A DNA stretch of 64,000 bases. Source: Streptomyces sp. 11x1. Lineage in GTDB: Bacteria; Actinomycetota; Actinomycetes; Streptomycetales; Streptomycetaceae. Both the position numbers and the translations under genes were made by a program. A model generated the notes under the pieces. The model was not told the DNA's origin and did no database searches. It was given only the letters and a program-made list of their open reading frames with translations. Location of the stretch: the NCBI RefSeq assembly GCF_032598905.1, contig NZ_CP122459.1, positions 67,522 to 131,521 on the forward strand. The letters are read 5' to 3'. Shown here one piece after another: positions 4,148 to 62,626 of this stretch. Position 1 is the stretch's first letter, and each line of letters begins with the position of its first letter.

Positions 4148-4177
4148 GCGACGTTAAGCGGGAGGCGTTCCTAGCTT
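4148..4177 (+). promoter_or_regulatory. Late-promoter-like element 1
   Basis: GCGACG at 4148-4153 (followed by TTAA), 18 nt, then TAGCTT at 4172-4177. GTG 4185 begins 7 nt after the second box with no ribosome-binding site, suggesting a leaderless transcript. It heads the membrane protein/portal unit. Confidence 0.65.
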
Positions 4178-4184
4178 CCGCCGG

Positions 4185-4550
4185 GTGAACACGACACCCA
4201 AGGACATGCCCGGCCGTCACCGCGCCGGGGCGCGGCTCGCCCGCGAACTCGCCGGGCTGCTCCTGGTGGCCGCTGGGACGATCGGCCTCGTCACTGCCGC
4301 GTTCGCCGTCCACCGGCTGGTCGGCGCCGGCCTGGTCGCCGCCGTGCTGCTCGCGTTCGGCTCCTGGACGCTTTACCAGCGGCCCCGGCCCGGACGAGCG
4401 GCGTACAACGTCGGAGCCGTCAGCACCGTGGCGGGCGCAGTGCTCGCCCTGGCACTGATCTGGTCACTCTCCCCCGCCGGCGGCCTTGCCGCTGTGTCCG
4501 CCCTCGGTGTGGGCGCGGGCCTGTGGCTGACCTCGGGTGAGGTGCGCTGA
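4185..4550 (+). CDS. Small multi-pass membrane protein
   Basis: A 121-aa protein with about four hydrophobic segments (LAGLLLVAAGTIGLVTAAF, a VGAGLVAAVLLAF stretch, VAGAVLALALIW, and a Gly/Ala/Leu-rich end), a short basic N terminus and a TLYQRPRPGR loop. Function unknown. The gene has no visible ribosome-binding site and its GTG lies 7 nt after promoter element 1. The TGA overlaps the portal ATG by one base (TGATG), so the genes are translationally coupled. Confidence 0.65.
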   Translation: MNTTPKDMPGRHRAGARLARELAGLLLVAAGTIGLVTAAFAVHRLVGAGLVAAVLLAFGSWTLYQRPRPGRAAYNVGAVSTVAGAVLALALIWSLSPAGGLAAVSALGVGAGLWLTSGEVR

Positions 4551-6988
4551 TGGCCGCCCGTCGATTCCTCCCCGCGCTGCGTTCGCTGCTGTCCAGCGGC
4601 CCCCCTCAACCGTCCGAGACGGAAACCAAAACGATCTCCTGGTCCGGAGGCGCGTACACGTCGACGATGTACGCCGGCACCGGGAACATCTGGGGCACAG
4701 AGGGGCGTGCCGACGGCTGGGACATGGACCGCGTCGTCACCGAGGGGTACGAGCGCGTCGTCTGGGTGTTCAAGGCCATCGACACCATCGGCAAGCACGC
4801 GTCACGCCTGCCCCTCGAACTGGGTCGTGGACTCACCGAGGAGGGCGAGTTCGAGGAGACGTTTCCCGACCACCCACTCCTGCGGCTGCTCAACGGGCAG
4901 GCGAATCCGCTTGAGACGGGACCGATGTTCCGCAAGCGGCTCTCGGCCCAGATCTTGCTCTCCAAGCGCGGAGCCTTCGTCGAGAAGACCCGCAGCCGGG
5001 CAGGCACCCTGACCCGGCTGGACCTGCTCCCCCCGGACCGCGTGCTGCCGATCCCGGACCCCAAGGGCGACTACCTCTCCCACTTCGAGTTCACGACTCG
5101 CGAGGGCGTTATCCGCGAACTGCCGCCCGAGCGGGTGCTGTGGATCCGCGACCCGCACCCCACCGACCCTTTCAGCGGCATCACTCCGCTGGAGGCTGCT
5201 GGCATCAGCGTCGACCTGGACCACCTGTCGCGGCTCTACAACGTGACGTTCATCAAGAACGACGCCCGCCCCGGTGGCGTAATCGCCGTCGACGCCACAT
5301 CCCTCAACCCCCAGGAGATGGACCGGCTCGAGTCCCGGTTCCTGCCCGGATCCGAGTTCGCCGGCCACCTGTCGGTGATCGCTGCAGGGCCCGGCGGCAT
5401 GAACTACGTCGACACCGCGGCGAAGCCGCGCGACATGAACTACGAGCACGCCTCCGCGAACGCGAAGTTGGAGATCCTCGCCGCGTTCGGCGTACCCGAG
5501 TCCGTCACCGGCAACGCGAGCGGCCGCACCTTCGACAACGCCGAGCAGGAAGAGCTCGGCTTCTGGCTGCACACCGAGCTCGGCCACCTGGAGCTCATCG
5601 CCAACGCGTTCGAGAAGGACGCAGGCGAAGAGATGCGGCTCCGCTACGACACGTCGACCGTCGAAGTGCTGGAACTCCCGCGCCGGAAGCGGCGAGCAGA
5701 AGCCCGCGAGGAGTGGAATGCCGGGCTCATCAGCATCGACGAATACCGCAAGCTCGCCGGGTTCTCCCCGTACGCCAACCCGCATACCCGTGCGCTGTGG
5801 ATCTCCCCACAGAAGGCTCCCGTGCCGCTCGTGCCGGGCGACGCCGCTGCGCTGGGTATCTCCGGCGGCCCCGACCAGGGCAGTGGCCCGGGTGCAGGGC
5901 CCGGCCCGAACGCCCCGCAGCAGCCCGGCCAGCCGTCGGCGGAGGGCGCCGCGGCGCAGGCCGTGGCCGAAGCGCGCGGTGAGGCGCCCCAGCACTCCCC
6001 CGATGGAGCGCAGGGCCCGGCAGCCGCAGCCGTCGACGAGGCGCGCTCCACCCTGCCGAGCCCGCAGCCCGGCGCCGCTGCCGCAGCCGTCGACGAGGCG
6101 CGGACAGGCCTGGATGGGATACCCGAGGAAGGCCCCGCCGCGGCCGCCGTCGACGAGGCCCGCCGTATGGAGTCCAAGGCGCTGCCCATGGTCACCGAGT
6201 TCAGCGTGGGGGACGACGACTTCGACCAGGCCCGCAGTGCTGTCGAGGCTGCTCTCACCGCGCTGTTCGCCCGGCAGGAGGGAGTCATCGCCGCGCGGCT
6301 GCGGTCTCCCAAGGCGCGGAAGGGCACTCCCTACTGGCTGGACGACGGGCCGGCCGACACCCGCGGCGGCAGCAACCCCATGGACATGGGCAAGGTCGTG
6401 GGGGCAGAGAAGTGGCAGGACGAGGTCATCGCCACCCTCACGCCCGTCCTGACCCGCCTTGCGAGCGCGAGGGCTGCAGACGCCGCGGACGCGTTCGGGG
6501 GCAGCGTCGGCGGCGGGGCGTCGTCCGGCATCGGCGCTGCGGTGCTCACCGCGGCGACCGTCGCCGCCGACACCATGCTGGCCTTCCACCGGGCGCTGGA
6601 GTTGATACTCGACGAAGCGCAGCGGGCCGACACCCCCCTGGACGCCTTGGTCGGAACTGTCGGCGAGATGCTGCAGGGCGAGGAGTCGACGCACGTCATC
6701 GGCAGCATCGCTGAGTCGGCCGCCACCGCGACGGTGAACGGCGCCGTCGACGCCGTCGCAGCGGCCACGAGCCCCGGCATTCAGCGGACTTGGCAGACAC
6801 GGCGCGATGACCGGGTACGTCCGGCTCACGCCGCTGCAGAGGGCCTGACGCTGCCGGTGAAGCAGCCCTTCGAGATGGAGGGCTGGCCGGTGCGCTTCCC
6901 CGGCGATCCGCTCGCCCCCCGCTCCCTCACCGCCAACTGCCGCTGCCGCCTGCGCTACCGCACCGCACCCGAAGGAGAAGCACCGTGA
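4550..6988 (+). CDS. Portal protein fused to a MuF-type head morphogenesis domain
   Basis: The 812-aa product joins two head proteins. Residues about 30-430 are an HK97-type portal (SAQILLSKRGAFVEK, LDLLPPDRVLPI, ERVLWIRDPHPTDPFSGITP, then LGFWLHTELGHLELIANAFEK). It forms the dodecameric DNA gate at the capsid vertex. A Pro/Gly-rich linker follows with three copies of an AAAVDEAR repeat. The C terminus (about 740-805) has the MuF signature WQTRRDDRVRPAHAAAEG, RFPGDPLAP and NCRCRLRYR. Portal and MuF are usually separate genes. The large terminase that normally precedes a portal is absent. Confidence 0.85.
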   Translation: MAARRFLPALRSLLSSGPPQPSETETKTISWSGGAYTSTMYAGTGNIWGTEGRADGWDMDRVVTEGYERVVWVFKAIDTIGKHASRLPLELGRGLTEEGEFEETFPDHPLLRLLNGQANPLETGPMFRKRLSAQILLSKRGAFVEKTRSRAGTLTRLDLLPPDRVLPIPDPKGDYLSHFEFTTREGVIRELPPERVLWIRDPHPTDPFSGITPLEAAGISVDLDHLSRLYNVTFIKNDARPGGVIAVDATSLNPQEMDRLESRFLPGSEFAGHLSVIAAGPGGMNYVDTAAKPRDMNYEHASANAKLEILAAFGVPESVTGNASGRTFDNAEQEELGFWLHTELGHLELIANAFEKDAGEEMRLRYDTSTVEVLELPRRKRRAEAREEWNAGLISIDEYRKLAGFSPYANPHTRALWISPQKAPVPLVPGDAAALGISGGPDQGSGPGAGPGPNAPQQPGQPSAEGAAAQAVAEARGEAPQHSPDGAQGPAAAAVDEARSTLPSPQPGAAAAAVDEARTGLDGIPEEGPAAAAVDEARRMESKALPMVTEFSVGDDDFDQARSAVEAALTALFARQEGVIAARLRSPKARKGTPYWLDDGPADTRGGSNPMDMGKVVGAEKWQDEVIATLTPVLTRLASARAADAADAFGGSVGGGASSGIGAAVLTAATVAADTMLAFHRALELILDEAQRADTPLDALVGTVGEMLQGEESTHVIGSIAESAATATVNGAVDAVAAATSPGIQRTWQTRRDDRVRPAHAAAEGLTLPVKQPFEMEGWPVRFPGDPLAPRSLTANCRCRLRYRTAPEGEAP

Positions 6989-7213: not shown

Positions 7214-7243
7214 GCGACGCTAAGCATCACCGCTGTGCATGGT
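7214..7243 (+). promoter_or_regulatory. Late-promoter-like element 2
   Basis: GCGACG at 7214-7219 (followed by CTAA), 18 nt, CATGGT at 7238-7243, then exactly 7 nt to ATG 7251. The ATG at 7239 lies inside the second box, so 7251 is the likely true start of the giant gene. Confidence 0.7.
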
Positions 7244-7250
7244 CCGCCGC

Positions 7251-10200
7251 ATGCCGAACCGGATCATCAACGCTCTCGCCTCAGTCTTCGAGACCAAGCG
7301 CGCCCGCCGCCCGTGGCGGGAGGAACTCCACCCTCGCGACTCGAAGGGCCGTTTCGTTGAAACGGGCGGCATCGCTCGCATCTGGGGCGGCGGCTTCGCC
7401 CGCGTCGTGCGCGCCCTGTCGCAGACCAAGGTGCAGGTCTCCGATCTGGACGGCAACAACCAGCGCCCCATCCAGACGTCGCGCCTGACGATGGTGGCCC
7501 GCCCGGACGGCTCCGCACCCACCAAGAGCAAGGACAAGGTCCAAGCGGAGGAGGAGCGTCGCGACGCCGACCCGCGCCGCGGCGACGGCCTCAACGCCGA
7601 CGACAACGGCGACCCGGACTCCTCGGACGCTCCGCACGACACGGACGACGAGGGCGAGCCGATCGGCGAGGACGACGGCGAGGAACCGAAGGACGAGGAC
7701 GAGCCGAAGAAGGCACCCCGGTTCTCCACGGTCGCCGCCGCCCGCAACCACCTGGAGTCGGGCCGCAAAGACGAGCGATGGAAGCGCCCGCCGCGCACCC
7801 ATAACGGCGTCCACCTGCGCGGCGCCTCCAAGCAGGAACGAGCCCAGGTCCGGATCGACACCTACTCGTACTCCTCCGCCCACGGACTCGACTTCGCTCG
7901 CACGTCGCAGCTCTCGTCCAACGGCAACTTCCTGGTCACCCGGCACGGCAAGGGCAAGTGGGACGTCTACCACGTCGCGTCGGGCACGATCATGACGCAC
8001 CAGGCGGGATTCAGTTCCAAGCCGGACGCTCTGCACTTCGCCAACGAGCTGGAGAACGCCCGCGACCGGCGCGGCCGCCCCTTCAACTGGGATGCCCCGC
8101 ACATCGCCGACCGGCTCGACATGGCTGAGGGCCGGGACGGCATTGACGCCGTCATCGCCCGCGGCCGCGAGCACGGCACTGGCCAAGGCGACAACGAGGA
8201 CCAGGGCCAGGCCCAGCCGCGGCCGGAGGCCCAGCAGCCGCAACTCGGCGAGGACGACCGCCAGGAGCAGGGCCAGGACCAGCAGCCGGACGGCAGCGGG
8301 AAACAGCAGGCAGCACACGAGCGGCGGGAGGCCCCCGCCCCGCAGGAGGGCGATGGAGGCCGGCTCACCACGGTTGCTCAGGTCCTCGACCACTGGCGCA
8401 CGAACCCGGACGTGCCGCGCCTCCGCGAGACCCACAACGAGCGAAAGCAGCGCGAGGCGGTCGCCCGCCAGCGAGCCGACCTCGTCACGGACCCGCAGGT
8501 CGTCGATGGCTTCCTCATCGGCCGTATGGACGTGGAGGGCAAGCAGCGCTGGACCGTCTTCCACGCCGGCACCTCGGTACCCATCGCCATCCTGGCCTCC
8601 GACAAGGGCAAGCCGGACGCCATCGCGCGGGCCCACGCCTACCGCGACTACCGCGACGAGCAGGGGCAGCCGTTCGACTGGAGCAGCGACGGCATCGGCG
8701 CACGTCTCGACTCGCCCGCCGGGAAGCGGATGCGGGAAGTCACCTCGGGTCGGACCCGTCACGAGCCGGGCCGTCACGAGAACGACGTCCCCGACGACGC
8801 CACCGAACTCGCCAGCTTCCCCGGCTATCGCATGGCCCGTGGCGAGGACGGCACCAACGTGTACGGCCCGGACGGCAAGCGCATCACCACCGGCCAGTCG
8901 GTGTTCGACCGCAGCACCCGCCGCTCCGCGTACGTCGGCGACGTCGGCAACCGGCACGTCAGCGGCCGCACGGAGACCGATTTCGCGGTCAACGCGGCCC
9001 GGCAGCACACGTTGGCTGGCCAGCCCGACGACCAGAAGGATCCGATGTGGGTCCAGTACTCGCCGAGCCGCGCCGTCGTCCACGGCGCGGACCGGAGCGA
9101 CGCGGACATGCACAAGCGGCTCCGCCGTGCCGGCTTCGTGTGGTCCGACGGCGCCAAGGCGTACGTCACCACCTCCAACACTCGCCCAGTGACCCGGGCC
9201 CTGGCCGTCGACGGCCTGGTGCGTGGGCTCGCCGACGAGGGCCGCCAGATCGAGGTGCGCCGCGACGAAGACCGCCTGCGCACCCCAGCCGCCGCGCCGC
9301 AGGCCCCCGCCGCTCCCGTCGCGCCCGAGGCTCCGGCCGCCGACGCTCCGAGCGTTGACGCGCCGGACTCCGCCCGCGCCCCCGACCTGCAGTCCCTCGA
9401 CGACGCAGAGCTTGAGGACTACTTCATCGCGGCGAACCGGGAGTTTCACGACGCCGACTTCAGCGACCGGGACCGCATGGCCGCGGCGCAGGGCCGGGCA
9501 GAGGACGCGCTGGAGGAGATGCAGCGCCGGGACCGCCTGAAGTACGCCGACGACAACGCCCGCCGTGCCCGCGTCGAGCCGTTCGACGGCAGGCGCTACC
9601 CGGTCACGATCGACGGTGACGACAGCGACGACGCCAGCCTGCAGGGCAGCAACGGCGCCTGGAAGTGGAACCGGCTCGGCAAGGGCAGCCGCTACAGCTC
9701 CGAGAAGCCGTTCCGCACCCGGGAAGCGGCCCTCGCAGACCTCATCGCTGAGCGCGACCGTGACCGCGGGAGGGACGACAAGCCGAACGGACCAGAGGCG
9801 CCGGCCACCGTCGACGAGCAGCGCGACCCCGAGGCCCAGCCGACGCCGCACGCGGACGACAGCAACGACGCTGCGGACGCCCCGTACGGGGATGAGGGCA
9901 AGACGTACGTCCAGGCCAAGAACGAGATCGCCGCCCTTCAGAGCGATTGGAACAGTTCCGACCTGGCCCGCGACCTGAGCAACGGGCAGGACCGGCAGCT
10001 CACAGCCGACCTCAACACCAGCTTCCGCCGCCTCGCGGCCACCACCGGCATACGCCAGCGCATCCAGGCCAGCCGCGAACTGCAGCAGTCCGCCGAAGCC
10101 GTCCTCGCCACGCTCGACGACGAGCCGGGCCGGGACCCGTACGGCAAGGCCCGCCCCGTCCTCGAAGCGATCCGCGACCGCGCCGAGCGGCATGGGCAGC

Positions 10201-13200
10201 GCCTGGACGCCACGCTGAAGGACCGCCGCGACAAGAAGAAGGAGCGCCCGGCGAAGCCCGCCAACGCCCCCTCCACGCCCGGGACGGATAATCAGTCCGC
10301 CCCCGACACCACCACCACGGGAGACGACAACAGTGGCGATGAACAAGCTCGGGCGGATCGCCGAGAAGCACTGGCAGACGTACCGGCCGACGGCGTACGC
10401 GGAGCTGGGGACGGACGCGGAGAGGGAGGAGTTCTTCGCGAGGCTCGGGATGGAGGCGAGCGAGGAGATCAGGACCAGGGCGGAGCAGATCCTGAGCAGG
10501 CAGACCAGCGAGAAGTTCGTGGACCGGGTGGCGGCCAGGGCGCAGGCGATGGCGCAGGCCCGGGAGATCGTGATGACCGAGCAGATCTTCCTGCCGGCCG
10601 AGCCCGGAATGGAGAGCGCCGAGCTTCCGGATCACGGCAGGCTGTAGCCGCTCAGGCCTTCCGCCCGGCGTCCCAGAAGGACTTGGCGCCGTCGGGTGAG
10701 AAGGCCCGAGCCCGCGCGAACGTCGCGGCGGTCCGGACGCTGCGGCAGATCCAGGCCGAGGACCGGCCGGCGACGCCCGCCGAGCAGAAGATCCTCGCCC
10801 GCTGGTCCGGCTGGGGCGCCCTGCCGATCGTCCTCGCGGACAAGCCGGAGCCGACGGACGGCGCCTTCCGGGACGCCGACGGCAACCCCGACCCCGCCAA
10901 GTACGCCCGTGCCCTGAAGAAGTGGGAGTCGTTCGCCGAGGAGCGCACCGCCGTCCGGGAACTCCTCAGCGACGAGGAGTGGGCCGCAGCGAGGGCGAAC
11001 ACCCTCAACGCCCACTACACGGACCACGAACTCGTACGGCCCCTTTGGGGCCTGGTCCGCGAGCTCGGATTCGACGGCGGCAACGTCCTGGAGCCCGGTT
11101 CCGGCAGCGGCAACTTCATCGGTTCCGCGCCCGAGGGCGCGCGCATGACCGGCATCGAGCTGGACCCGACCACCGCGGCGATCTCGCAGCTCCTCTACCC
11201 GGACGCCCGGATTATCAACGACTCGTTCGGCGACGTCCGCATGCCGAACTCGTACTTCGACCTGGCCATCGGCAACGTGCCCTTCGGCCGTTTTCCGATG
11301 TACGACGCCCAGGTCAACCCGGACAACAAGCACTCGATCCACGACACCTTCATCCTCAAGAGCCTGCAGAAGGTCCGGCCCGGCGGCCTGGTCGCCGTCG
11401 TCACCAGCCGCTACACCATGGACGGCGAGGACGACACCGCCCGCCGCCAGATGTCCTACATGGCCGACCTGGTCGGCGCGGTCCGTCTCCCGGCCGGCGC
11501 TCACCAGGACGCCGCCGGCACCGGTGTCGTCACGGACGTGCTGGTCTTCCGCCGCCGCTTCGGCGACGAGAACACCCACGACATCGACATGTCATGGACC
11601 CGGTCGTCGAAGACGACCGTCAACGGCCACGAGATCGCGGTCAACGACTACTTCCAGCAGCACCCCGAGATGATCCTCGGGCAGCTCACCACCGGCCGAG
11701 GTCAGTTCTCCGACCACGACCTGACCGTCGTCGGCGACAAGAACGCCGGCCCCGCGCTGAAGGCGGGCCTGGAACGCATCCTCCGGAATTCGTTCCACTC
11801 CCAGCGCAACGGCCGAATGCGGTACGTGCCGGAGATCGACGCCGTCGACCGGCACCTAGAGCTCGCCGGGGAGAAGCACGAAGGCGCCGTACACATCCTC
11901 AACGACGGCAAGTTCACGCAGGTCGAGGACGGCGCGGTCGTCCCTCTCGACGTGCATCCCACCCAGCAGGAGCAGCTCCGCAAGCTGATCAGCCTGCGGG
12001 AGACCGCCAACCGCCTCCTCCGAGTCGAGGGCTCCACCCGCGAGACGGGCGAGACCGACCAGATGCGGGCCCTGCGCCAGGAGCTGAACGAGGCGTACGA
12101 CGCCTACGTCAAGCAGCACGGCCCGATCGACAAGCCGGGCCAGACCCGGTTCTTCAGCCCTCAGGAGGCGAAGGACCGAGCGAAGGCCGAGGGCCTGAAG
12201 GACGTCCCGGACGCGTGGAAGCAGCCGTCCGCGCTGCAGCTCTTCGAGGACGACCCGGCCTCCGCCGTGGTGTTCGGCCTGGACAAGTGGGACGACTCCG
12301 CGAAGTCGGCGAAGAAGGCCGACATCTTCCAGCAGCGGGTACTGGCGCCCCGCGAGATCTCCGACCGCGCCGACAGCCCCGAGCAGGCCATCGCCCTGGC
12401 GCAGGAGCTCGACGGCGGCGAACTGCACCTGCCGACGATCGCCCGTCTCCTGGGACGCACCGACCTGCAGGCTCTGCGCGAGGAGATCGGCCCGCTCGCA
12501 TTCGACGAACCGGGCACCAACAGGCTCGTCTCCCGCGGCGAGTACCTGTCCGGCAACGTCCGCGAGAAGTTGGCGCTCGCCGAGAAGGCCGCGGCCGCCG
12601 ACCCGCGGTTCGCGGCGAACGTCGCCGCCCTGAAGAACGTCATCCCGCGCGATCTCGACCCGTCCGAGATCAAGGTCAAGATGGGCGCCCCGTGGATCCC
12701 GGAGACGGACGTCACGGCGTTCCTGCAGCACATCCTCGGCACCAAGGCTGTCCGCGCCGAGCGCGGAGGCGCCTCCATGTGGGAGGTGCAGGGCCCCACC
12801 ACCGGCATCGCCGCCCGCTCCGACTGGGGCACCAAGTCCAAGCCGGCGCCGGAGATCGCCAAGGCGCTGCTGGAGCAGCGCACCATCGTCGTCACCCGCA
12901 CGGTCGAGGTTGGCGGCAAGAAGGTCACCGTCACCGATGACGAGGCCACCAGCGAGGCGCAGGCCAAGGCCAAGGAGATGGCCGAGCGGTTCTCCGAGTG
13001 GGTGTGGGAGGACCCCGAGCGCACCAAGCGCCTGGCCCGGGTCTACAACGACACCTTCAACAACCTGGTGATGCGGGAGTTCGACGACTCTCCGCTGGCC
13101 CTGCCCGGCGCGAACGCCGAGTGGGAGATGCGCCCGCACCAGAACGCGGCGATCCGCCGAATCGTGAGCGAAAAGTCGGTGCTGCTGGCCCACGTGGTCG

Positions 13201-16200
13201 GCGCCGGCAAGACCGCCACGATGGTCGCCGGTACGCAGGAACTGCGCCGCACCGGCATGGCCCGCAAGCCTGCCATCGTCGTCCCCAACCACATGCTCGG
13301 CCAGTTCCGGCGCGAGTACCTGGAGCTGTACCCGGACGCCAAGCTGCTCACGGCGTCCTCTGCGGACCTCACCGGCAAGAAGCGCCGCCGCTTCATCGCC
13401 AAGGCAGCGACCGGCGACTGGGACGCCGTCATCCTCACGCAGGGCGCCTTCGAGCGGATCCCCATGCGCGCGGAGGCCCAAGAGAAGTACATGCGCCGGG
13501 AGCTCGACAAGCTCAAGGACGAGATCAAGCGTGCCAAGCAGCGTGAGGGCAAGTCGCTGACCCTCAAGCGCCTGGAGGAGACGCTCAAGCAGAAGGAAGC
13601 CAAGCTCAAGCAGAAGCTGGCCGCGAAGAAGGACGCCGGGACCGTCCACTTCGAGGACACCGGCATCGACTACCTGATGGTCGACGAGGCGCACGGCTAC
13701 AAGAACCTGGCCACCGCCTCGCACATCGAGGGCGCCGCCATCTCCGGGTCCGCGCGGGCCTCCGACCTTCACATGAAGATCGAGTACCTGCGGGAGCGGA
13801 ACGAGTCCGGTCGCGTCGTCACCCTCGCCACCGGTACGCCGATCGCCAACTCGGTGACCGAGGCGTACGTGATGCAGCGGTTCCTGCGCCCCGACGTCCT
13901 GGAAGACGCCGGCGTCGACGACTTCGACTCCTGGGCCGCCACGTTCGGCGAGATCGTGCAGAACCTGGAGCTGGCCCCCGACGGGTCCGGCTTCCGGATG
14001 AAGGCCCGGTTCTCGCGCTTCCACAACGCCGCCGAACTGCTGCGCATGTACCGGCTCGCCGTCGACGTGCAGACCGCCGCCGACCTCAACCTGCCCACCC
14101 CCAAGGTGCGCACTGGTGCGGACGGCAAGCGCGGCGAGATCGTCACCGTGCCGATCTCCGCCGAGCAGAAGGCGTTCGTCACCGCGCTGCCCAGCCAGCC
14201 GTGGATCCACAAGCAGGGCGGCGTTCTCAAGGCCATCGGCCTGGCCTCCCGCGCGGCGATCGACATGCGGCTCGTCGGCGGTCACGGCGAAGAGGGCGGC
14301 AAGATCGACGCCGCCGTCCACAAGATCGCCGAGATCTACGAGGAGAACAAGGACCGGATCTACCCGGTCTCCGACAAGGACCACACCCCGCAGAAGCTGC
14401 CTGGCTCCCTGCAGATCGTCTTCATGGACGCGGGCACGCCCGGGTCGACCGCGAAGAACGCGTGGGACGGCTACGCGTACATGAAGGAACAGCTCGTCGA
14501 GGCGGGCGTTCCGGCCAACAAGGTCCGCTTCATCCACGAGGCGAAGACCGACAAGGCCAAGGCCAAGCTGTTCGAGGACGCCCGCAACGGCAAGATCGCG
14601 GTGCTCATCGGCTCCACCGAGAAGATGGGCACCGGCACCAACATCCAGACGCGTGCCGTCGCCCTGCACCACATGGACTTCCCGTGGCGGCCGGCGGACA
14701 TGGCGCAGCGCGAGGGCCGCATCGAGCGCCAGGGCAACCTGAACATGCCGGAGATCCCCGGCACCGCGGACGACGTGCGCATCCTCTCGTACGTCACCGA
14801 GGAGACGTTCGACGCCTTCAAGTTGGGCACGCTGGAGCGCAAGGCCGGGTTCATCGCGCAGATGGACCGCAAGGACTTCGACGCCCGCGAGATGGAGGAC
14901 ATCGGCGACATCGCCGTGTCGTTCGGTCAGATGAAGGCCATCGCGACCGGCGACATGACGGTCATGGACTATGCCCAGGCGGGCGCCGATGTCGTCGAAC
15001 TGCAGCGCGCGGACCGCCGTTGGCACCGCGACCAGGACACTCGCCGCCGCACGGTCGCGGCAGCCGACGGCATCATCAGCGACCTCGCCGAAGTGCTGCC
15101 GGCGTGGCGGGACGCCCTGGCCCGCCGCGAAGACGTCTCCGGTGACAACTTCCGCATCCGCATCGGAGACGAGGAGTACGACCAGCGCGCTGACGCCTAC
15201 GACGACCTCGCCCAGCGTGTCCGCGCCGCCGCCCGCAACATACATCTGCAGGACGGTGTCCGGGTGCCCGTCGGCCACCTCGGCGGTCACGACTTCCACG
15301 TCGAAATCGGTCACGACCAGTTCGGCAACCGCGTTGCCAAGGTCCGCTTCGACTGGCCGAGCTGGGAGCACCCCGCCGAGCCGGACACCCGTGGCGTCTA
15401 CATGCCCAGCCAGCTCGACGAAGCCTCCGGCCGGGGCATCCTCGCCTCCCTGGAACGCCGCCTGAGCAACCTCGACGAGGCCATCGCCGACGCCGAGCAC
15501 ACCCTGGAAGTCGCCCAGGACGAACGGGTGCGCGCGCAGCGCGGCATCGGCGGCACCTCACCGTACGGAGAGCGCCTTCGGTCCAAGGAGCGCCGCGTCG
15601 CGCTGCTGTCGGACCTGATCACCGCGAACGAGAAGATGAAGGGGTACAAGGGCCGCGAGGTCGACCCGAACGACAAGGGCTATCTGAAGGCGCGGCGCCG
15701 TGTCGCCGAGCTGAAGGAAGAGCTCGGCATCGAGGACCAGCGCGAGCAGGAGATCGACGAAGCGGCCGCGGCCGCCGCCCTCAACGCGGTCGCCGACGAC
15801 TCCGTCACCCTGAACCCTGACGACGTCGACCGGGAACTCGCCGCGATCCGGCCCGCGGGCGCCGAACGTGCTCCCCGCAAGCGCTCCGGCGCGACCACGG
15901 TCAACGAGCGCAGCGAGTCCTCAAGCGCCGGCGGAGCCGGAACGGTGACTCTCGACCGTGACCAGGTCGACGAGGACCTGGAGTCGATCCGCCAGGCCGG
16001 CGGTGGTGCGGGATCGGGCGGGTCTTCGGAGCCGCCGAACAGGCCGGACCTTCCGCAGCCGGACGACAGCGGAGACGACACCCCGGAGCCTCCGGTCGGC
16101 ACGGCCAGCCCGCGCACCATGGACCCGGCAGACCTGCAGGCCGAAATCGTCGCGCTCATCGAGCACGAGATGGCGTACGGCCCGCTCGAAGGCGCCGCCA

Positions 16201-19200
16201 AGACCCGCTTGACGTCGCTGGAGGCGGAGAAGGACCGAAAGGCCGGGAAGCGTCCCCAGCGCGAGCCTGCGCCCAAGCCGACGCCGCAGCGCAGCGGCCC
16301 CGGCGGGAACTGGGCTGACCTGAACCGCAACCAGGTGGAGGGCGACGGCGGCGAAGACGACGGCCTGTTCTCCGCGCCGGCCGCGCCGACTGGCCCGAAC
16401 CGGGCAGCCGACCCGAACAACCCGCTGGACCGGCCCGACGATGCGTTCGGCACCATGGACATGTTCGCTGACGCGGAAGGCCGCGACACCGAGGATCTCC
16501 GCGAGGCCGAGATCCGGCGCGCGGACCAGTTGAAGCAGAACGACCGGTTCACCGACGCCGACGGCCGCGCCCACACTGTTGCCGAGCCGCCGAACAGGAC
16601 CGGCCGTGGCCGCATCCGCATTGTCACGGAGGAAGGCCGAGAACTCTTCTACCGTCCGGCCGACGAACTGCGGCTGGGAGACGCCGGCACTGCGAACCGC
16701 TCTGATACTCCGCAGTCGACGCCTCAGCCCCAGGACGTGCCGTCCAGCCCCGAGCTTTCCTCGGCTCAGCCGTTCGCCAGCAACAAGGAGTGGCGCGACG
16801 GTCTGGCGCCGGTGGACGCCGCTGAGACCCGCCTGGGCGCTGCGGCGTCGCAGACTTGGGGGTCGCGGGAGATGCCCGACTCCGTAGGCCGTATCCGCCG
16901 CGGCGTCATAAACGCCGTCGCCGCCCTGGACCCGGAAGAGAACGACTTCGACGGGGCCGAGCGCGAACTTACGGACGCCCGTGAGCAGGCGATCGACCTG
17001 CAGGGGTCGCTGCTGCGCTCTGAGCGCGAAGCGATGGACGCGCCGCTGCGCGACCTGGTCGGGGCACTCGACACCTTCCTGGCCCGGCACCGAGCCACCC
17101 GCGACCAGCGGCAGGGCGAGGACGACGCTGCCCGACGTCTCGACGAGCAGGCGCGTACCGGCTTCGAGGACCAGCAGGCCCCGGCCGCGCCGGACGAAAC
17201 CACCAACGCGTCGCAGGGCGACGCCTCCGGCGAGAAGCCGGTCCCGAAGTACGCCTCGCAGGACGAGGTCGTCACGCCCAAGGGGACCGGGTACGTCGTT
17301 GCTTACGGCCCGGACGGCGTTCTGGTCAACGAGGACGGCACCTACCAGCTCTACCCCGAGGACCAGCTTTCCCGGCCGGGCGAAGAGCGTGTCCCGGAGC
17401 CGGAGGACACGAGCGCGGACGCCAAGCAGCAGCAGAAGCTGGCCGCGGCGCAGTCACCGGAGGGCCTGGAGCTGCGATCCGACAACGCCCGTCTCGCCAA
17501 CCTGAACCTGGACGAGGGCCACGGCGAGGTCCTGGACGAAGACGGCGACGTCCTCGGCTGGATCCGTCGCCGCGGCACCACCTGGTACGGGCAGGACGCC
17601 CGCGGCGGCATCAAGAGCAGCACGAGCTGGAAGGAGGACAAGAAGGGCGGACCGATCCGCGCCGCCGAGCTCATGGCTGGCATGGTCGCCATGAACGCCC
17701 GCAGCGACCGCACCATGCTCGGTGGGGAGCCGTTCCGGCACATCGCGCCCGAAGACGTCGTCGCCGCGATCAGGTACTCGGCGCTGCCCGACGCGCAGGT
17801 CCGTGAGCTCCGCGCGCTCGTCGCCGACTGGAAGAAGTCCGACGACGCCGAGCTGCGCACCGCGGCGGACAAGTGGTCCATAGGGATCACCATGGCGCAG
17901 ATGCGCCGGCTCGCCACGGCGGTCGATGCCGCCGCGGACGCGGAGGACACGAAGACGAAGGAGGGACGCAATCGGCAGCGCGTGCTGCGCCGTCTCGCCG
18001 AGAACGTTCGGCACCAGGCGCACATCGCTGAAGGCTCGCTGTCGACGCTGCCGCGTCCGGGCGAGCCGGATCCGTGGGCGAAGCCGTACCGGTCGCAGGA
18101 AGCAACACAGACTGGTGCCCCCTCGGCTGACGAACCTGAGCAGCCGAGCCCGGATGTGCCCGCTGGCGATGCCGAAGGGGGGTCCCGGGAGCATGTCGGC
18201 GAGCACAACGGCAAGCCGGTGGAACTTGGCGAAGAACACGTCATCCCCGCCAAGTTCCACTTCCACAGGGACGAGGTTCGGCGGGACGTCTTCCTCGACG
18301 GGGAGCGCATCGGCTCTGTCCTGCGCAACGACTCGGGAGACGAGGCGTGGCGAGCGGACCATGCTGCACACGGCTCCGTCGGTGACCCGTGGTCGCGCAA
18401 GGCGGACTTTGAGAACCCGGCGCACGCCGCTGCTCTCGTCGTCGCGGACTCGCACGACAAGCCGTTGCTGAGCTTCCCCGGTGACCGTAGTGGTCGTGCC
18501 ACACCGATCCGGGATTGGGCCGGTGTGTGGGCGGAACCGCAGCCGGACGACGTGCGCAACGTCTATCTCGACCGGGCCGTGGCCGAGAACGGTGACGGTT
18601 GGACGGCCTCCGCCGATCCGTGGGACGTCAGGTTCTGGATCTCCACCATGGCCAACGTCGAGCCCTTGGCCCAGTACGACGAGAACACCCGTCGCAGCCT
18701 GCAAGCGGTGCCGCTGGAGGGACGCCAGTTCCTTGCCGACCTGGCAGACGATCTGCGTTCTTCAGTCCGGGAGATGGGTGAAGAGCTGCGTGCGGACCTC
18801 CGCCCCATCCTGGTGGCCCACATCGCCACCCGGGACGGTCGGAAGAAGGCCCGCGAGCTGCACAGCCAGTTGACCGAGGAGCGGGTGCAGAAGGTTCGGG
18901 AGGCAGTACGCGAGCAGATCGCGCGTGCCCGCTCCGGAGCCGCAGAGCACGGTCTGTCTGACCAGCAGGCGGAAGACTTCCTCGTCAACGTGGTCGGAGG
19001 CGACAACCCCGACCAGACTGCCTACGGGGTCCGCGGTGAGTTCCCCGAGGCCATTCGTCCTCTCAAGGCTGCTGTCGCGGACGGATCCGCCTACTGGTCC
19101 GCCTTCGCCGGGTGGGCGACGCAGGAGGACAGCTCGAACTGGGCTGGCATGCACTGGGAGAACGGGCGGCGGGAGGCAATCGGCGCTCCGATGGTTCCTG

Positions 19201-26382: not shown

Positions 26383-26412
26383 GGGACACAAGCCAGCCAC
26401 GGCCCTCACCCT
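26383..26412 (+). promoter_or_regulatory. Late-promoter-like element 3
   Basis: GGGACA at 26383-26388 (followed by CAAG), 18 nt, CACCCT at 26407-26412, then 6 nt to GTG 26419. It lies between the arms of a 9-bp inverted repeat (26373-26381 and 26396-26404) that may end the previous transcript. It is a weaker match but correctly placed. Confidence 0.45.
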
Positions 26413-26418: not shown

Positions 26419-26994
26419 GTGACCACTACTCGCTTCGCTTACGCCATCAAGGCCCTGCCCGACACCCAGCCGGCCCCCGGGGGGCCACCGGGCCCGCCCG
26501 ACCCCGCCGCGGGCGAGATACAGCCGCCCGCACACGACGACTCCCGCCCGTGGGCGGGCGACGCCTACGACGAGGGGGACGAGACGGATCCGGCGAACGC
26601 CTATGCCGCGTTCACCGGACAGGACGGTGAGGAGGCCTGGTTGGACCGGGCCCCCGACGGCACCCTCACCGGCTGGGTCCGCGACGCCACGGGGCAGGTG
26701 TGGCGGTACAGCGACGACAGCGCTTGGGTGCTGGACGTCGACGGCGCGCAGATGCAGCGCGTCAGCACCACCCCCGGCCAGAACCCCACAGGCGACGCCC
26801 CGACGGATGGGCAGGAGGCGCCCGCAGAAGAGGAGACCCCCGACCCGTACGCCGCAGAAACCGACGATCCGGAGGCCGACCCGCTCGCCGACGCCGACGA
26901 GGAAGACCCGGATATGGAAGAGTCCCCAGACGAGGACGAGGACGACGCGCCCTTCCCCGGGGCGAAGAAGCCGAAGCAGAAGGGAGGCAAGTAG
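26419..26994 (+). CDS. Acidic hypothetical protein, possibly a scaffold or head accessory
   Basis: A 191-aa protein starting at GTG 26419 (VTTTRFAYAIKALPD). The GTG at 26368 is less likely because the extended frame would cover an inverted repeat and the promoter-like element. A central folded part (EAWLDRAPDGTLTGWVRD, GQVWRYSDDSAWVLDVDG) lies between Pro/Gly-rich and Asp/Glu-rich stretches, with a Lys-rich end (KKPKQKGGK). It sits upstream of the prohead protease and capsid, so a head-assembly role is possible. No family recognised. Confidence 0.55.
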   Translation: MTTTRFAYAIKALPDTQPAPGGPPGPPDPAAGEIQPPAHDDSRPWAGDAYDEGDETDPANAYAAFTGQDGEEAWLDRAPDGTLTGWVRDATGQVWRYSDDSAWVLDVDGAQMQRVSTTPGQNPTGDAPTDGQEAPAEEETPDPYAAETDDPEADPLADADEEDPDMEESPDEDEDDAPFPGAKKPKQKGGK

Positions 26995-27177
26995 ATGGCC
27001 ATGGACCGCAGCACAGCGCTCGCAGTCGCCCAGGAAGCGCACAAGGCAGCCGCCGCCGGCAAGACCGTTAAGGACTGCCCCTACGACGCCGACGCCGACA
27101 GCCCCGAGCAGCGCTTCAAGGCCCGCTACTGGACCCTCGGCTTCGAGCAGGCCCAGGAGGACAGCGCGGGACGGTAA
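26995..27177 (+). CDS. Rmf/CrpP-like small protein
   Basis: A 60-aa protein with the pattern AVAQEAHKAAAAGKTV, then a CPYDADADSPEQRF stretch, then ARYWTLGFEQA. This resembles the ribosome modulation factor/CrpP-type family (Gly-rich helix, CPY, W-x-x-G-F). Rmf inactivates ribosomes by dimerisation, so a phage copy could act on translation or simply bind RNA; the family match is by eye. The start ATG 26995 follows AGGGAGG and the preceding stop directly. Its stop TAA lies in the next promoter-like element. Confidence 0.5.
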   Translation: MAMDRSTALAVAQEAHKAAAAGKTVKDCPYDADADSPEQRFKARYWTLGFEQAQEDSAGR

Positions 27178-27197
27178 GGCGCTGGCGGGGGCACGGT
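27168..27197 (+). promoter_or_regulatory. Late-promoter-like element 4
   Basis: GGGACG at 27168-27173 (followed by GTAA, which includes the previous stop codon), 18 nt, CACGGT at 27192-27197. The expected start of RNA is near 27205, leaving a leader of about 31 nt to GTG 27236 with CTGGAGG as ribosome-binding site. Confidence 0.6.
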
Positions 27198-29446: not shown

Positions 29447-29476
29447 GCGACGTTAACCCCTCCCGTGTTCTCCAAT
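29447..29476 (+). promoter_or_regulatory. Late-promoter-like element 5 (capsid)
   Basis: GCGACG at 29447-29452 (followed by TTAA), 18 nt, TCCAAT at 29471-29476. The first box is perfect and the second weak. Expected RNA start is near 29484. The leader holds an 11-bp perfect stem (29497-29507 with 29539-29549) just before the capsid start, which could stabilise the mRNA. Confidence 0.6.
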
Positions 29477-33713: not shown

Positions 33714-33743
33714 GCGACGTTAGAGCGCGGGGCGGTCCAAGGT
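33714..33743 (+). promoter_or_regulatory. Late-promoter-like element 8
   Basis: GCGACG at 33714-33719 (followed by TTAG), 18 nt, CAAGGT at 33738-33743. Expected RNA start is near 33751, leaving about 27 nt to GTG 33778 with a GGAGGAC site. It heads the connector gene run. Confidence 0.65.
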
Positions 33744-36049: not shown

Positions 36050-36079
36050 GCGACACTACCGGGCACCGCTCTGCACCCT
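36050..36079 (+). promoter_or_regulatory. Late-promoter-like element 9
   Basis: GCGACA at 36050-36055 (followed by CTAC), 18 nt, CACCCT at 36074-36079, then exactly 7 nt to ATG 36087, which has no ribosome-binding site. A leaderless start is likely. Confidence 0.6.
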
Positions 36080-37171: not shown

Positions 37172-37201
37172 GCGACGTTAACTGCCCGCTGTCTCCATCG
37201 T
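37172..37201 (+). promoter_or_regulatory. Late-promoter-like element 10 (tail tube)
   Basis: GCGACG at 37172-37177 (followed by TTAA), 18 nt, CATCGT at 37196-37201. Expected RNA start near 37209, leader about 33 nt with GAGGAGAG before ATG 37242. Confidence 0.65.
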
Positions 37202-40025: not shown

Positions 40026-40055
40026 GCGACGTAAGGCGATCAGGGTTTCTACCTT
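40026..40055 (+). promoter_or_regulatory. Late-promoter-like element 11
   Basis: GCGACG at 40026-40031 (followed by TAAG), 18 nt, TACCTT at 40050-40055. Expected RNA start near 40063, leader about 31 nt with GGGAGGAC before ATG 40094. It heads the tail chaperone, tape measure and distal tail genes. Confidence 0.6.
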
Positions 40056-45899: not shown

Positions 45900-45929
45900 G
45901 CGACGTAAGCACGCCGCGCCCGTGATCCT
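45900..45929 (+). promoter_or_regulatory. Late-promoter-like element 12
   Basis: GCGACG at 45900-45905 (followed by TAAG), 18 nt, GATCCT at 45924-45929. Expected RNA start near 45937, leader about 29 nt with AGGAGGAAC before ATG 45966. Confidence 0.55.
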
Positions 45930-48165: not shown

Positions 48166-48195
48166 GCGACACTAACCACCCGGACGTCGACCATC
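48166..48195 (+). promoter_or_regulatory. Late-promoter-like element 13 (fibre)
   Basis: GCGACA at 48166-48171 (followed by CTAA), 18 nt, ACCATC at 48190-48195, then exactly 7 nt to ATG 48203, which has no ribosome-binding site. The second box is weak; the spacing is perfect. Confidence 0.55.
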
Positions 48196-52151: not shown

Positions 52152-52535
52152 ATGCCCGCCCTCCCGCTGCCGCTGACCACTCTGTGCGCCCTGGCCTGCG
52201 AGCCCTCGTTACTGCCACGGGTCCGGATGGCCATCGCGGTCGTCGCCCAGGAGGTTTTTGCCGAGCCGCCGGCCACGCCTGGCTACCCGCTGAGGTGGAA
52301 CCTCGCCAAGACGGTGCTTAGCCCCACCGAGGCGCAGGCCGCGGCCATGACGGTGGGCCTGGTGGTCTCGCCCAGCCTGCTCGCCGCCGCGGCGGCTGCG
52401 GGGACCACCGACCCGGCCGCCATGGCAGCAGCGATCACAGACGAGCAGCTCCTCGCCGCGGTCCGCCAGGGCTGGAACCCGGTCGCCGGCGTCAGCTTGG
52501 CCGACACCGCAGAGATGATGCAAGCGACGACGTAA
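52152..52535 (+). CDS. Small hypothetical protein after the fibre
   Basis: A 127-aa Ala/Pro-rich helical protein from ATG 52152 (GAGGA upstream, 10 nt after the fibre stop). It reads CALACEPSLLPRVRMAIAVV, AEPPATPGYPLRWNLAKTVL, LSPTEAQAAAMTVGLVVSP, and WNPVAGVSLADTAEMMQATT. Phages often encode a fibre-assembly protein here, but no such family is recognised. Its stop TAA lies in promoter element 14. Confidence 0.55.
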   Translation: MPALPLPLTTLCALACEPSLLPRVRMAIAVVAQEVFAEPPATPGYPLRWNLAKTVLSPTEAQAAAMTVGLVVSPSLLAAAAAAGTTDPAAMAAAITDEQLLAAVRQGWNPVAGVSLADTAEMMQATT

Positions 52536-52556
52536 GCCCTCTCGGTGGTGCAGCTT
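52527..52556 (+). promoter_or_regulatory. Late-promoter-like element 14
   Basis: ACGACG at 52527-52532 (followed by TAAG), 18 nt, CAGCTT at 52551-52556. The expected RNA start is near 52564, inside the hairpin at 52563-52598. Confidence 0.45.
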
Positions 52557-53133: not shown

Positions 53134-53163
53134 GCGACGGTAGGGCGCACGGCCCGGCAAGGT
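53134..53163 (+). promoter_or_regulatory. Late-promoter-like element 15 (holin)
   Basis: GCGACG at 53134-53139 (followed by GTAG), 18 nt, CAAGGT at 53158-53163. Expected RNA start is near 53171, leader about 29 nt to ATG 53200. Confidence 0.65.
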
Positions 53164-56754: not shown

Positions 56755-56839
56755 TGCGCCTTCCCTGATCTTGGCGTGTGTGCATCGCCTGGCTTCGCTG
56801 TGACCGGGCGATGGTGCGGGGCGCAGGGGGTTAACCTCT

Positions 56840-56885
56840 CCCCCAGCATCCGAGCTGTACGTTTTTCTAGTATAGCTGAACTGGG
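56840..56885 (-). promoter_or_regulatory. AT-rich candidate promoter for the ATPase gene
   Basis: The only AT-rich patch of the block contains, on the minus strand, TATACT (about 56868-56873), close to the -10 consensus, about 115 nt before ATG 56754. No clear -35 box is seen. The boundaries are approximate. Confidence 0.35.
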
Positions 56886-56957: not shown

Positions 56958-56969
56958 GAAGCGGAGTAC

Positions 56970-60216: not shown

Positions 60217-60242
60217 GGGTTCCTCGGGAGGGGCGGCCCGGC

Positions 60243-60265
60243 CGGGGGGGGTGGCGGGCCCCCCG
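60243..60265 (-). terminator. Weak GC hairpin between two minus-strand genes
   Basis: A 7-bp stem of a C/G run (60243-60249 with 60259-60265) lies just after the 60283 gene's stop on the minus strand. There is no T-run after it, so it may only attenuate transcription. Confidence 0.3.
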
Positions 60266-60282
60266 AAGCGTGGGGAGGGCGG

Positions 60283-60843: not shown

Positions 60844-61297
60844 GTGTGTCCTTCCCCCCAGGTTCGCTGTGTCCCGGGGTGTAAGGGTGAGGTGGTGCCC
60901 ATGGCCCGGTGCTGCGATGACAGCCCTTCAGACGCGGCAGGCATGCCATTCGTTACACCAGTCCCCGGCGACTGAATCGCCGTTGGCTTGAGTACGTGAA
61001 CCATACAGTACGGATGTGCCGGACGTCGATCACCCGGCAGCACGCGACGCAAGCCGATCTGCCTCCCTACGGTCTGCGGCGGTCACCACGACTGTGCGCC
61101 GTGCACACGCGCAGCACCGGGTGACCCCGGTTCGGCCTTTCCGGAACAGGACGGCCCGGCCCGGCGGCACGACACGGTCCGGCCATGACGGCATGCCCCG
61201 TCCAGCGAGACACCGGGGCGCCGCGGTAGAAGTCCGCGGGCTCGCTGACCGTGCCACTGCCGCCGGGGAAACCTCCACCGCGTCACCGAGGGGTCCC
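60844..61297. promoter_or_regulatory. 454-bp divergent control region
   Basis: It lies between the leftward replication genes and the rightward ParB-domain gene. On the minus strand TATGGT (about 60995-61000) with TCGACG 18 nt upstream is a plausible host-type promoter for the replication block. On the plus strand promoter element 16 lies at 61044-61073. The rest (61090-61290) is GC-rich with frames of no coding character; I see no gene in it. Confidence 0.45.
61044..61073 (+). promoter_or_regulatory. Late-promoter-like element 16
   Basis: GCGACG at 61044-61049 (followed by CAAG), 18 nt, TACGGT at 61068-61073. Both boxes are strong. The leader to ATG 61298 would be about 217 nt, longer than at any other site. 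Confidence 0.5.
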
Positions 61298-61921
61298 ATG
61301 AGCACGATCGCCGCGCCGCGCTACACGTCGTACGTCCCGCTCACCGACCTCACGCCCAGCCCCGGCAACCCCAAGCGGCACGAGATCGAGCGGATCATCG
61401 AGTCGATCGAGACGCACGGCTTCCTCGACCAGGGCATCGTCGACGAGCGCACCGGGCTGATCATCGGCGGTCACGGTCGGCGCGAGGCCCTGATAGAGAT
61501 GCAGGCCCGCCGCGGCGCGCGCCTGCCCGACGGCCTGCTCATCGACGACGACGGCGGTTGGCTCGTCCCTGTCCAGCGCGGATGGTCCTCGCGCAACGAC
61601 CTCGAAGCCAAAGCGGTGATCATCAAGCTCAACCGGCTCACCGAGGCGGCCGGCTGGGACTCCCGCTCGCTCGCGGAGTACCTCGAAGAGCTCGCCACCG
61701 GCGACGCGGCCCTGTTCGACTCGCTGAACTACAGCGACGACGAGATGGAACAACTCCTGCGCCAAGTCGACCCCGAGTCGCTGCCCGGCGGTTCGCCGGA
61801 CGCCGACGAACTCCAGGACCTCGGCGGGACGGGCGGAGACTTCGCCGACAGCGGCGACAACGACCGGGCCCGAACCGTGTGCTGCCCCGCCTGCGGAGAG
61901 CCGTTCACGCCCGGACAGTAG
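61298..61921 (+). CDS. ParB/Srx-domain protein near the terminase
   Basis: A 207-aa protein from ATG 61298 with GAGGGG 5 nt upstream. The N-terminal 130 residues are a ParB-type nuclease/CTPase fold: VPLTDLTPSPGNPKRHEIER, IIESIETHGFLDQGIVDERT, GLIIGGHGRREALIEMQARR, AKAVIIKLNRLTEAAGWDS. The C terminus ends CCPACGEPFTPG, a likely half zinc knuckle. Such proteins commonly precede small terminase genes in actinophages and are thought to act in DNA modification or packaging, not in partition; the true partition pair is at 38-40 kb. Confidence 0.7.
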   Translation: MSTIAAPRYTSYVPLTDLTPSPGNPKRHEIERIIESIETHGFLDQGIVDERTGLIIGGHGRREALIEMQARRGARLPDGLLIDDDGGWLVPVQRGWSSRNDLEAKAVIIKLNRLTEAAGWDSRSLAEYLEELATGDAALFDSLNYSDDEMEQLLRQVDPESLPGGSPDADELQDLGGTGGDFADSGDNDRARTVCCPACGEPFTPGQ

Positions 61922-61941
61922 ACCCGCCCGATTCGTACGTT
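61912..61941 (+). promoter_or_regulatory. Late-promoter-like element 17
   Basis: CGGACA at 61912-61917 (followed by GTAG, which holds the previous stop), 18 nt, TACGTT at 61936-61941, then 6 nt to ATG 61948, which has no ribosome-binding site. A weaker match but placed for a leaderless start. Confidence 0.45.
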
Positions 61942-61947
61942 CTCGCC

Positions 61948-62592
61948 ATGCCCCGTCGAAAGCCGCGCCGGCCGCCCCGCATCCCGGCCGTCATGCTGCG
62001 CCCACGCCTGATGACCGACCAGGTCATCGAACGGCTCGTGGAAGGCAGCCGCATGGGCCTGTCCCTCGGCAACGCGGCCGAATTCGCCGGGATCTCCCGC
62101 CGCACCCTCACCTACTGGCTCACCCGCGGCCGCGACCAGGCCCTCGCCATCAGTGCAGGCCAGACTCCCGAAGCGGCGGAAGTCCCGTACGTCGACCTGT
62201 TCGACAAGGTCACCAGTGCCCGCGCACAGGCAGCGGCCCGCGCCATGGCGCAGATCCAGCGCGCTGGGGCCGGCGGCGCCGTTCTGGAAGAGGTCACCCG
62301 GAAGTTCCGCGACTCGGTCACGGGCCAGATCGTCGAAGAGACCACCGTCAAGCGGCAGGTGCCCGACTGGAAGGCCTCCGCCTGGTACCTCACCCACCAG
62401 CACGGATCTGACTACGTCGAGGGCTACGGCCTGGACGCGGAACTCGCCCCTGAAGACGACGGCGAGGAGCAGGTGGAGGCGGACCTCGAAGGCCTCGCGC
62501 AGCGCCTGGCCGTCACTCTGCACGCGGTCGAGTACCCGCCCGAGATCGAGCAGCTGGACGACGACGTCGTGGACGCCGACATCGTCGAATGA
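61948..62592 (+). CDS. Small terminase subunit-like protein
   Basis: A 214-aa protein from ATG 61948. A basic start (MPRRKPRRPPRIPAVMLRPR) leads into a helix-turn-helix typical of small terminases: GLSLGNAAEFAGISRRTLTY, WLTRGRDQALAIS. It is followed by PYVDLFDKVTSARAQAAARA and PDWKASAWYLTHQHGSDYVE, the usual C-terminal pattern of actinophage small terminases, which select the pac or cos site and hand DNA to the large subunit. An acidic tail ends it. The large subunit is not next to it; the endolysin follows instead. Confidence 0.65.
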   Translation: MPRRKPRRPPRIPAVMLRPRLMTDQVIERLVEGSRMGLSLGNAAEFAGISRRTLTYWLTRGRDQALAISAGQTPEAAEVPYVDLFDKVTSARAQAAARAMAQIQRAGAGGAVLEEVTRKFRDSVTGQIVEETTVKRQVPDWKASAWYLTHQHGSDYVEGYGLDAELAPEDDGEEQVEADLEGLAQRLAVTLHAVEYPPEIEQLDDDVVDADIVE

Positions 62593-62596
62593 GCAC

Positions 62597-62626
62597 GCGA
62601 CGCTAACCGGTCGCGCCCGGCACGGT
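62597..62626 (+). promoter_or_regulatory. Late-promoter-like element 18 (endolysin)
   Basis: GCGACG at 62597-62602 (followed by CTAA), 18 nt, CACGGT at 62621-62626. Expected RNA start near 62634, leader about 34 nt with CGGAGG before ATG 62668. Confidence 0.65.

Follow-up and report, generated by a model that had tools for sequence, protein, structure and literature searches.

The last 64 kb of the second contig of Streptomyces sp. 11x1 carries a repeated two-part motif, about 16 bp around GCGACR (box 1) followed 18 (sometimes 17) nucleotides (nt) downstream by YANNNT (box 2), and we read its copies as promoters of the late and other rightward units of a phage-plasmid, a prediction made because of their strand, location, nearly fixed spacing and distances to start codons. 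It is likely that a phage-encoded extracytoplasmic function (ECF) sigma factor, related to sigma-BldN, drives the late genes through these promoters. The stretch analysed, hereafter the window, comprises 64,000 nt (C2:67522-131521) of a contig of 131,521 bp in a 10.67-Mb genome. Kin of this element are Streptomyces phage Gilgamesh (MN234216; 129 kb) and six circular Streptomyces plasmids of 125-133 kb; with six IMG/VR contigs of 121-137 kb they make up our 14-record set, in which the 13 Streptomyces relatives were compared with the element in full.

Form and spacing of the motif

The GCGACG hexamer alone was rejected as a signal, being uninformative at 89 plus-strand and 85 minus-strand copies in the window; since it is this common on both strands, only the two-part form was tested. 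When GCGACG was paired with a box-2-like word, the plus strand of the element gave nine pairs at a spacing of 18 nt and at most three at any other spacing from 5 to 34 nt, and its minus strand gave none at 18 nt. The corresponding counts in Gilgamesh were seven pairs at 18 nt and four at 17 nt on the plus strand, with one at 18 nt on the minus strand.

The first-pass annotation had written the motif as GCGACG, 18 nt and CANGGT or TANCTT, and all nine coordinates that it listed as strongest do carry a two-part sequence. The letters deviate at some of them (GGGACG at 27168 and GCGACA at 36050 in box 1; CACCCT at 36050, CATCGT at 37172 and TACGGT at 61044 in box 2), and box 2 is better given as YANNNT, mostly CANNGT, with the A and the T nearly invariant. 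Further conserved letters are an A at -5, a C at -1, R-Y-W-A-R-C behind GCGAC and a C-rich stretch after box 2, as counted with a pattern in which GCGAC, A, A and T were fixed. The first-pass statement that the spacing is 18 nt at all but one weak site does not carry over to the family: among 318 strong first halves, a second half was found at 18 nt in 220, at 17 nt in 41, elsewhere in one and nowhere in 56, so that 41 of 262 paired first halves have 17 nt. In one subgroup (records W03 and G002-G005) box 1 is often G[GA]GACG, with a C two bases ahead of the box; a strict pattern finds only one to four matches in five relatives, where the matrix shows a variant first box.

Occurrence on the element and in relatives

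For this element, we used a matrix built from 110 sites of the other records only, a test that is out of sample by record, with orthologous sites of relatives still present in the training set. At a threshold of at least 12 bits, the 131.5-kb element holds 19 plus-strand and three minus-strand sites; 10 second-order Markov simulations gave 0.0 per strand on average. The window accounts for 14 plus-strand sites and no minus-strand site at this threshold, and between 9 and 12 bits it adds 48166 and 61912 on the plus strand and 56840 on the minus strand. The three minus-strand sites of the element lie outside the window and look real because they stand 32-55 nt ahead of leftward genes. In the whole genome a strict pattern matches five times, always on the plus strand of the element. 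A loose pattern matches 14 times on the 0.13-Mb element (12 plus, two minus) and 16 times on the chromosome of about 10.5 Mb, compared with 19 genome-wide for the reversed control; on the host chromosome the loose motif is no commoner than its control.

Each of the 14 records was then scored with a matrix trained on the others, with gene starts taken from our own simple caller rather than curated annotation. In all, 248 plus-strand and 22 minus-strand sites were found. Two of the plus-strand sites lie wholly within a called gene and 187 overlap none; the next gene is on the same strand for 247 and starts within 150 nt for 238. The minus-strand sites behave alike, with two wholly within a called gene, 20 overlapping none, 21 followed by a gene on their own strand and 20 by a start within 150 nt. 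The first-pass annotation had placed the sites at the heads of units, and 246 of 248 plus-strand sites do not lie wholly within a called gene. Its proposed comparison of a matrix with background, like its proposed search of relatives, came out in favour of the motif: matches are few or absent within genes, in simulated sequence and on the window's minus strand, and the motif is present in this element and in its 13 Streptomyces relatives. Gilgamesh has 23 plus-strand sites and one minus-strand site; the tables of its record list coding genes only and no promoters.

A wider survey of 62 loci around the capsid gene, some of them overlapping the training records and some near-duplicates, returned 413 plus-strand, no minus-strand and two reversed-control matches, and 58 of the loci hold four to nine plus-strand sites each. 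The four loci without any site are also the only ones in which capsid identity does not exceed 49%. Neither matrix nor pattern found a site in Thermobispora plasmid NZ_CP039125 (capsid 48-49%), and none was found in Gordonia phage Gray, which was scanned by pattern only.

Predicted promoters of the window

The sites of the window are listed below by position in the window; bits refer to the matrix trained without this element, and orthologue counts give the records, among the 14, with a site before the orthologous gene.

4148..4177, plus strand: promoter site GCGACG-N18-TAGCTT, 27.2 bits; leaderless GTG (4185) of a 121-amino-acid (aa) gene, 7 nt after box 2.
7214..7243, plus strand: strongest promoter site, GCGACG-N18-CATGGT, 41.4 bits; leaderless ATG at 7251, 7 nt after box 2, in frame with a 6293-aa gene; orthologues 14/14.
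26383..26412, plus strand: promoter site GGGACA-N18-CACCCT, 23.2 bits, outside the strongest sites of the first-pass annotation; leaderless GTG at 26419.
27168..27197, plus strand: promoter site GGGACG-N18-CACGGT ahead of a 721-aa gene, 16.7 bits; orthologues 12/14.
29447..29476, plus strand: promoter site GCGACG-N18-TCCAAT ahead of the major capsid gene, 24.0 bits; orthologues 9/14.
33714..33743, plus strand: promoter site GCGACG-N18-CAAGGT, 22.7 bits; orthologues 14/14.
36050..36079, plus strand: promoter site GCGACA-N18-CACCCT, 28.4 bits; leaderless ATG at 36087.
37172..37201, plus strand: promoter site GCGACG-N18-CATCGT, 33.1 bits; orthologues 14/14.
40026..40055, plus strand: promoter site GCGACG-N18-TACCTT, 27.7 bits; orthologues 14/14.
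45900..45929, plus strand: promoter site GCGACG-N18-GATCCT, 25.8 bits; orthologues 10/14.
48166..48194, plus strand: weak site GCGACA, 9.9 bits in the 18-nt register; probably best read with a 17-nt spacer, going by the 17-nt class.
52527..52556, plus strand: weaker site ACGACG-N18-CAGCTT, 14.0 bits.
53134..53163, plus strand: promoter site GCGACG-N18-CAAGGT, 28.3 bits; orthologues 13/14.
56811..56840, minus strand: weak variant site GAGAGG-N18-CACCAT ahead of a leftward AAA gene, 10.6 bits; 16.2-18.4 bits at the same gene in Gilgamesh, W04 and W06.
61044..61073, plus strand: promoter site GCGACG-N18-TACGGT, 30.7 bits; the next called gene (ParB-like) begins 224 nt after box 2.
61912..61941, plus strand: weak site CGGACA-N18-TACGTT ahead of the small terminase gene, 10.6 bits; ATG 6 nt after box 2.
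62597..62626, plus strand: promoter site GCGACG-N18-CACGGT ahead of a 349-aa gene (lysin in Gilgamesh), 34.8 bits; orthologues 14/14.

The genes preceded by a site in 14 of 14 records are the 6293-aa gene, the 349-aa gene and three genes of the structural region; a site stands ahead of the large terminase gene in 13 records and of the major capsid gene in nine. The absence of sites before the leftward replication genes, as the first-pass annotation had it, holds at 12 bits or more for the replication-type genes of the window, with the qualification that the AAA gene in this block has the weak variant ahead of it. The 6293-aa open frame behind the strongest promoter (window 7239-26120, plus strand) is partly related to Gilgamesh gp48 (4624 aa).

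Distances to start codons

Start codons keep a characteristic distance from the plus-strand sites. An ATG or GTG lies 6 nt after box 2 at 15 sites, 7 nt at 58 and 8 nt at four, and no other offset from 0 to 15 nt is used more than three times. When 247 plus-strand sites were classed by their next gene, with in-frame starts at 6-8 nt also accepted, 68 fell into a leaderless class, none of which has a Shine-Dalgarno-like word, its place being filled by the site itself. In a further 112 the start lies 23-60 nt after box 2, and 106 of these have a Shine-Dalgarno-like word (776 of 1234 among all plus-strand genes). Only four sites have a start at 9-22 nt; the remainder comprise 48 at 61-150 nt (31 with a Shine-Dalgarno-like word), nine beyond this and six inside the site or less than 6 nt after it. 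From these distances we predict that transcription starts about 7 nt after box 2, which would explain the gap at 9-22 nt because such a start allows either a leaderless transcript or a leader long enough for a ribosome-binding site.

A phage-encoded ECF sigma factor with probable kinship to BldN

The gene for the ECF sigma factor (C2:2402-3136, minus strand) lies outside the window, about 2.4 kb past its right end on the circle. The protein, given as 260 aa, exceeds the curated cut-offs of PF04542 (37.7 bits), PF08281 (45.5 bits) and PF04545 (44.6 bits), and consists of sigma70 region 2 and region 4 domains with little else, as expected of an ECF member. In 14 of 14 records an ECF-type sigma gene occupies one locus, next to the genes for the lysin and the single-strand binding protein (Gilgamesh names). 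The element carries both a promoter class ahead of virion and lysis genes and a sigma gene, as late sigma systems do. The first-pass annotation had suggested a phage-specific sigma factor or activator, and the distribution agrees with this, as four distant relatives (the Thermobispora plasmid, Gordonia phage Gray and two distant contigs) have neither sigma domain nor motif. A region 4 domain was found in 15 of 18 records searched, the others being a site-bearing 58.7-kb fragment, the Thermobispora plasmid and the Gordonia phage, and region 2 is missing in all four distant relatives. At E≤1e-18 the sigma profile matches 24 of 35 further records. All 10 whole genomes that hold a capsid locus are among them, at 180-327 bits, with sigma and capsid scored per genome rather than per contig. 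The 11 without a match are nine site-bearing contigs of 51-95 kb and two distant relatives without sites. Just upstream of the sigma gene of this element there is no site of at least 9 bits, and a simple consensus scan of 601 bases ahead of it found no host sigma70-type promoter.

Searched against the host, the phage sigma profile scores highest, after the element's own protein, with sigma-BldN (147 bits; next 101). Host sigma-BldN was identified by its RsbN neighbour, which matches chain D of PDB 6dxo, the BldN-RsbN complex; the sigma family profile also finds 6dxo first in the PDB. In a quick tree with 28 other host sigma factors (best matches, not all), 38 phage sigma factors, seven BldN proteins and three host sigma factors group together (Shimodaira-Hasegawa-like approximate likelihood ratio test, SH-aLRT, 92), the phage proteins not forming a supported single clade. 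Identity over the recognition stretch averages 0.49-0.56 to BldN and the three tree-mates, with 0.24-0.48 for the remaining 25. Among NCBIfam models, too, the BldN family (TIGR02952) scores best, at 83.1 bits and thus far below its cut-off of 206.45.

The promoters can be compared as well. The BldN motif is given as CGTAAC-N16-CGTTGA and a search motif as CGTAA-N18,19-GTT (PMC2375139). We located the bldN-rsbN gap in two of six loci, and both read CGTAAC-N17-CGTT. The phage consensus CRYWA-N19-GT (G at 62%) fits the BldN motif, with GCGA added upstream and an altered -10. The first-pass annotation knew of no described promoter with its consensus; we found none in the open-licence literature (titles and abstract starts), whereas the CGTAA part does match sigma-BldN promoters. 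The phage protein falls in the same ECF clade as sigma-BldN, has a similar recognition helix and, in part, a matching promoter geometry (CGTAA-N19-GT), and differs in scoring far below the family cut-off, in the extra GCGA upstream in its motif and in being carried by phage-plasmids. A further correspondence between protein and motif is that all seven sigma factors with C as the second base in no more than half of their sites carry [KR]P[VA]G ahead of the recognition helix, as opposed to none of the 31 others.

In the mechanism that we propose, host core RNA polymerase with the element's ECF sigma factor would read the sites, with sigma region 4 contacting box 1 and the letters around it (about -42 to -27) and with YANNNT as the -10. 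A share of the transcripts starting about 7 nt after box 2 would be leaderless, and the sites would be silent without the phage sigma factor.

Points against this assignment and alternative readers

Several observations weigh against assigning the sites to the phage sigma factor. Among leadered sites, purines are not favoured 6-8 nt behind box 2 (60, 38 and 41 of 160). The seven [KR]P[VA]G proteins form one clade, and their co-variation with the motif therefore counts as one event; moreover, for 24 of the 38 sigma factors only five to nine sites near the capsid gene are available. The sigma subgroups are about 25-40% identical, with the motif nearly unchanged. When motif distances are correlated with protein distances, the sigma factor ranks fifth of 33 shared proteins (r 0.42, top 0.50), and other conserved proteins are distributed alike, including a replication-initiator-like helix-turn-helix protein and the ParB-like protein. 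With its A at position 2 and T at position 6, box 2 obeys a sigma70-like rule that would equally suit host HrdB aided by an activator. The kinship to BldN is itself weak, since ShbA is nearly level in NCBIfam (78.8 against 83.1 bits), and the sigma sequence of this element, searched alone, finds PDB 9isn first and 6dxo second.

Part of this evidence would suit a phage activator that brings in the host HrdB holoenzyme by binding to the extended first element (about -42 to -27), box 2 then being a degenerate -10. We consider this rather unlikely, though it deserves a hearing: the first element, at about 16 bp, is long for a -35 alone, box 2 keeps A2 and T6 as in TANNNT, DNA-binding proteins besides the sigma factor are common to the records, and the distance test favours no single protein. 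The model for such a system is T4, where MotA binds a box near -30 of middle promoters; there, too, a long upstream element precedes a -10-like box at almost constant spacing. Here, unlike in T4 middle transcription, a sigma factor is present, and no activator family appeared in Pfam and PHROGs scans of selected shared proteins, several of which had no match at all and none of which was the object of a search aimed at MotA. The sigma factor is the sole shared protein of a known promoter-recognition type, and its promoter shares the BldN geometry.

That a host ECF sigma factor such as sigma-BldN reads the sites, the phage sigma factor having another role, seems very improbable to us. CGTAA and the spacing are common to BldN promoters and the phage motif; however, GCGA is missing from the two bldN-rsbN gaps examined, the loose motif on the chromosome is no commoner than its reversed control, and motif variants track the phage sigma subtypes. 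We give hardly any credence to an operator, partition or packaging site or a leader RNA element, for although the motif is repeated, conserved and mostly intergenic, it has one orientation to the next called gene (247 of 248 plus-strand and 21 of 22 minus-strand sites), and its start codons, which follow either at 6-8 nt or only much later, are a misfit for a symmetric protein site or leader RNA.

Genes following the sigma gene

The phage sigma gene, our preferred candidate for the reader of the sites, is followed by overlapping genes for proteins of 127 aa (C2:2035-2418, minus strand) and 606 aa, and, as ECF operons would lead one to expect, one of the two probably restrains the sigma factor. 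Our caller predicted the small gene in 13 of 14 records. Among the candidates scored, 111 are related to its product; 63 of them lie on contigs longer than 100 kb, and for 58 of these the contig measures 112-138 kb, so that the protein could serve to mark the phage-plasmid family. In the 606-aa family, one stretch near residues 106-135 exceeds a simple hydrophobicity threshold in nine of 14 members, that of this element falling below it. A resemblance of the small protein to RsbN, suggested by eye, found no support in hhalign (probability 0.04 percent with a three-row RsbN alignment), Foldseek or VIA-align. Its structural model (predicted local distance difference test, pLDDT, 77; predicted template modelling score, pTM, 0.32) had no Foldseek match at E≤0.001, and RsbN was absent among the VIA-align matches listed.

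Near the sigma locus and outside the window, C2:4087-5112 (plus strand) encodes a LuxR-type helix-turn-helix protein for which W02 and W04 alone, of the records compared, gave a match.

The element and its relatives

The 131,521-bp contig is circular, because one gene, that of a single-strand binding protein, continues from one of its ends into the other. It is a phage-plasmid, as judged from an extrachromosomal circular contig with virion genes and a ParB-like gene, and six relatives are filed as circular plasmids. These kin, together with the bldN-rsbN locus of the genome, speak for a Streptomyces host. Gilgamesh is a sister element with the same motif and with its sigma factor annotated as gp92; unlike this element, it was isolated as a virus. 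The Thermobispora plasmid (L037; 145 kb) has terminase, portal and capsid homologs, while sigma domain and motif were not found, and presumably uses another late control. Two large genes at window 228-3070 are matched neither in the Thermobispora plasmid nor in any of the 13 other Streptomyces records, and are likely cargo, to judge from this restricted occurrence.

Implications for phage-plasmid biology

A phage sigma factor with its own promoter class is a known kind from other phages, the late-gene sigma factors T4 gp55 and SPO1 gp28 and gp33/34 among them. As in those phages, a phage product is proposed to redirect host polymerase to a phage promoter class before virion genes; unlike them, the sigma factor here is ECF-type, belongs to a phage-plasmid and is encoded in one operon with two further proteins, one small, the other long and bearing a borderline hydrophobic segment. 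We found no ECF or BldN-related version in phage-plasmids in the open-licence literature (titles and abstract starts), which is no proof of absence in print.

The findings provide a testable pair of promoter and sigma factor for widespread large Streptomyces phage-plasmids. Late transcript starts, leaderless ones included, become predictable, and a motif scan alone marks transcription units in any relative. Tentatively, one may ask whether the late programme of this family is gated by a captured BldN-type ECF sigma factor together with its own membrane-linked restraint. If this were true, lytic growth would answer an envelope signal or a developmental signal of the mycelium, instead of or besides DNA damage, and the phage sigma factor could also touch the host sporulation regulon. 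The pair of promoter and sigma factor also offers a route to ask which signal frees the late genes in a developing mycelial host.

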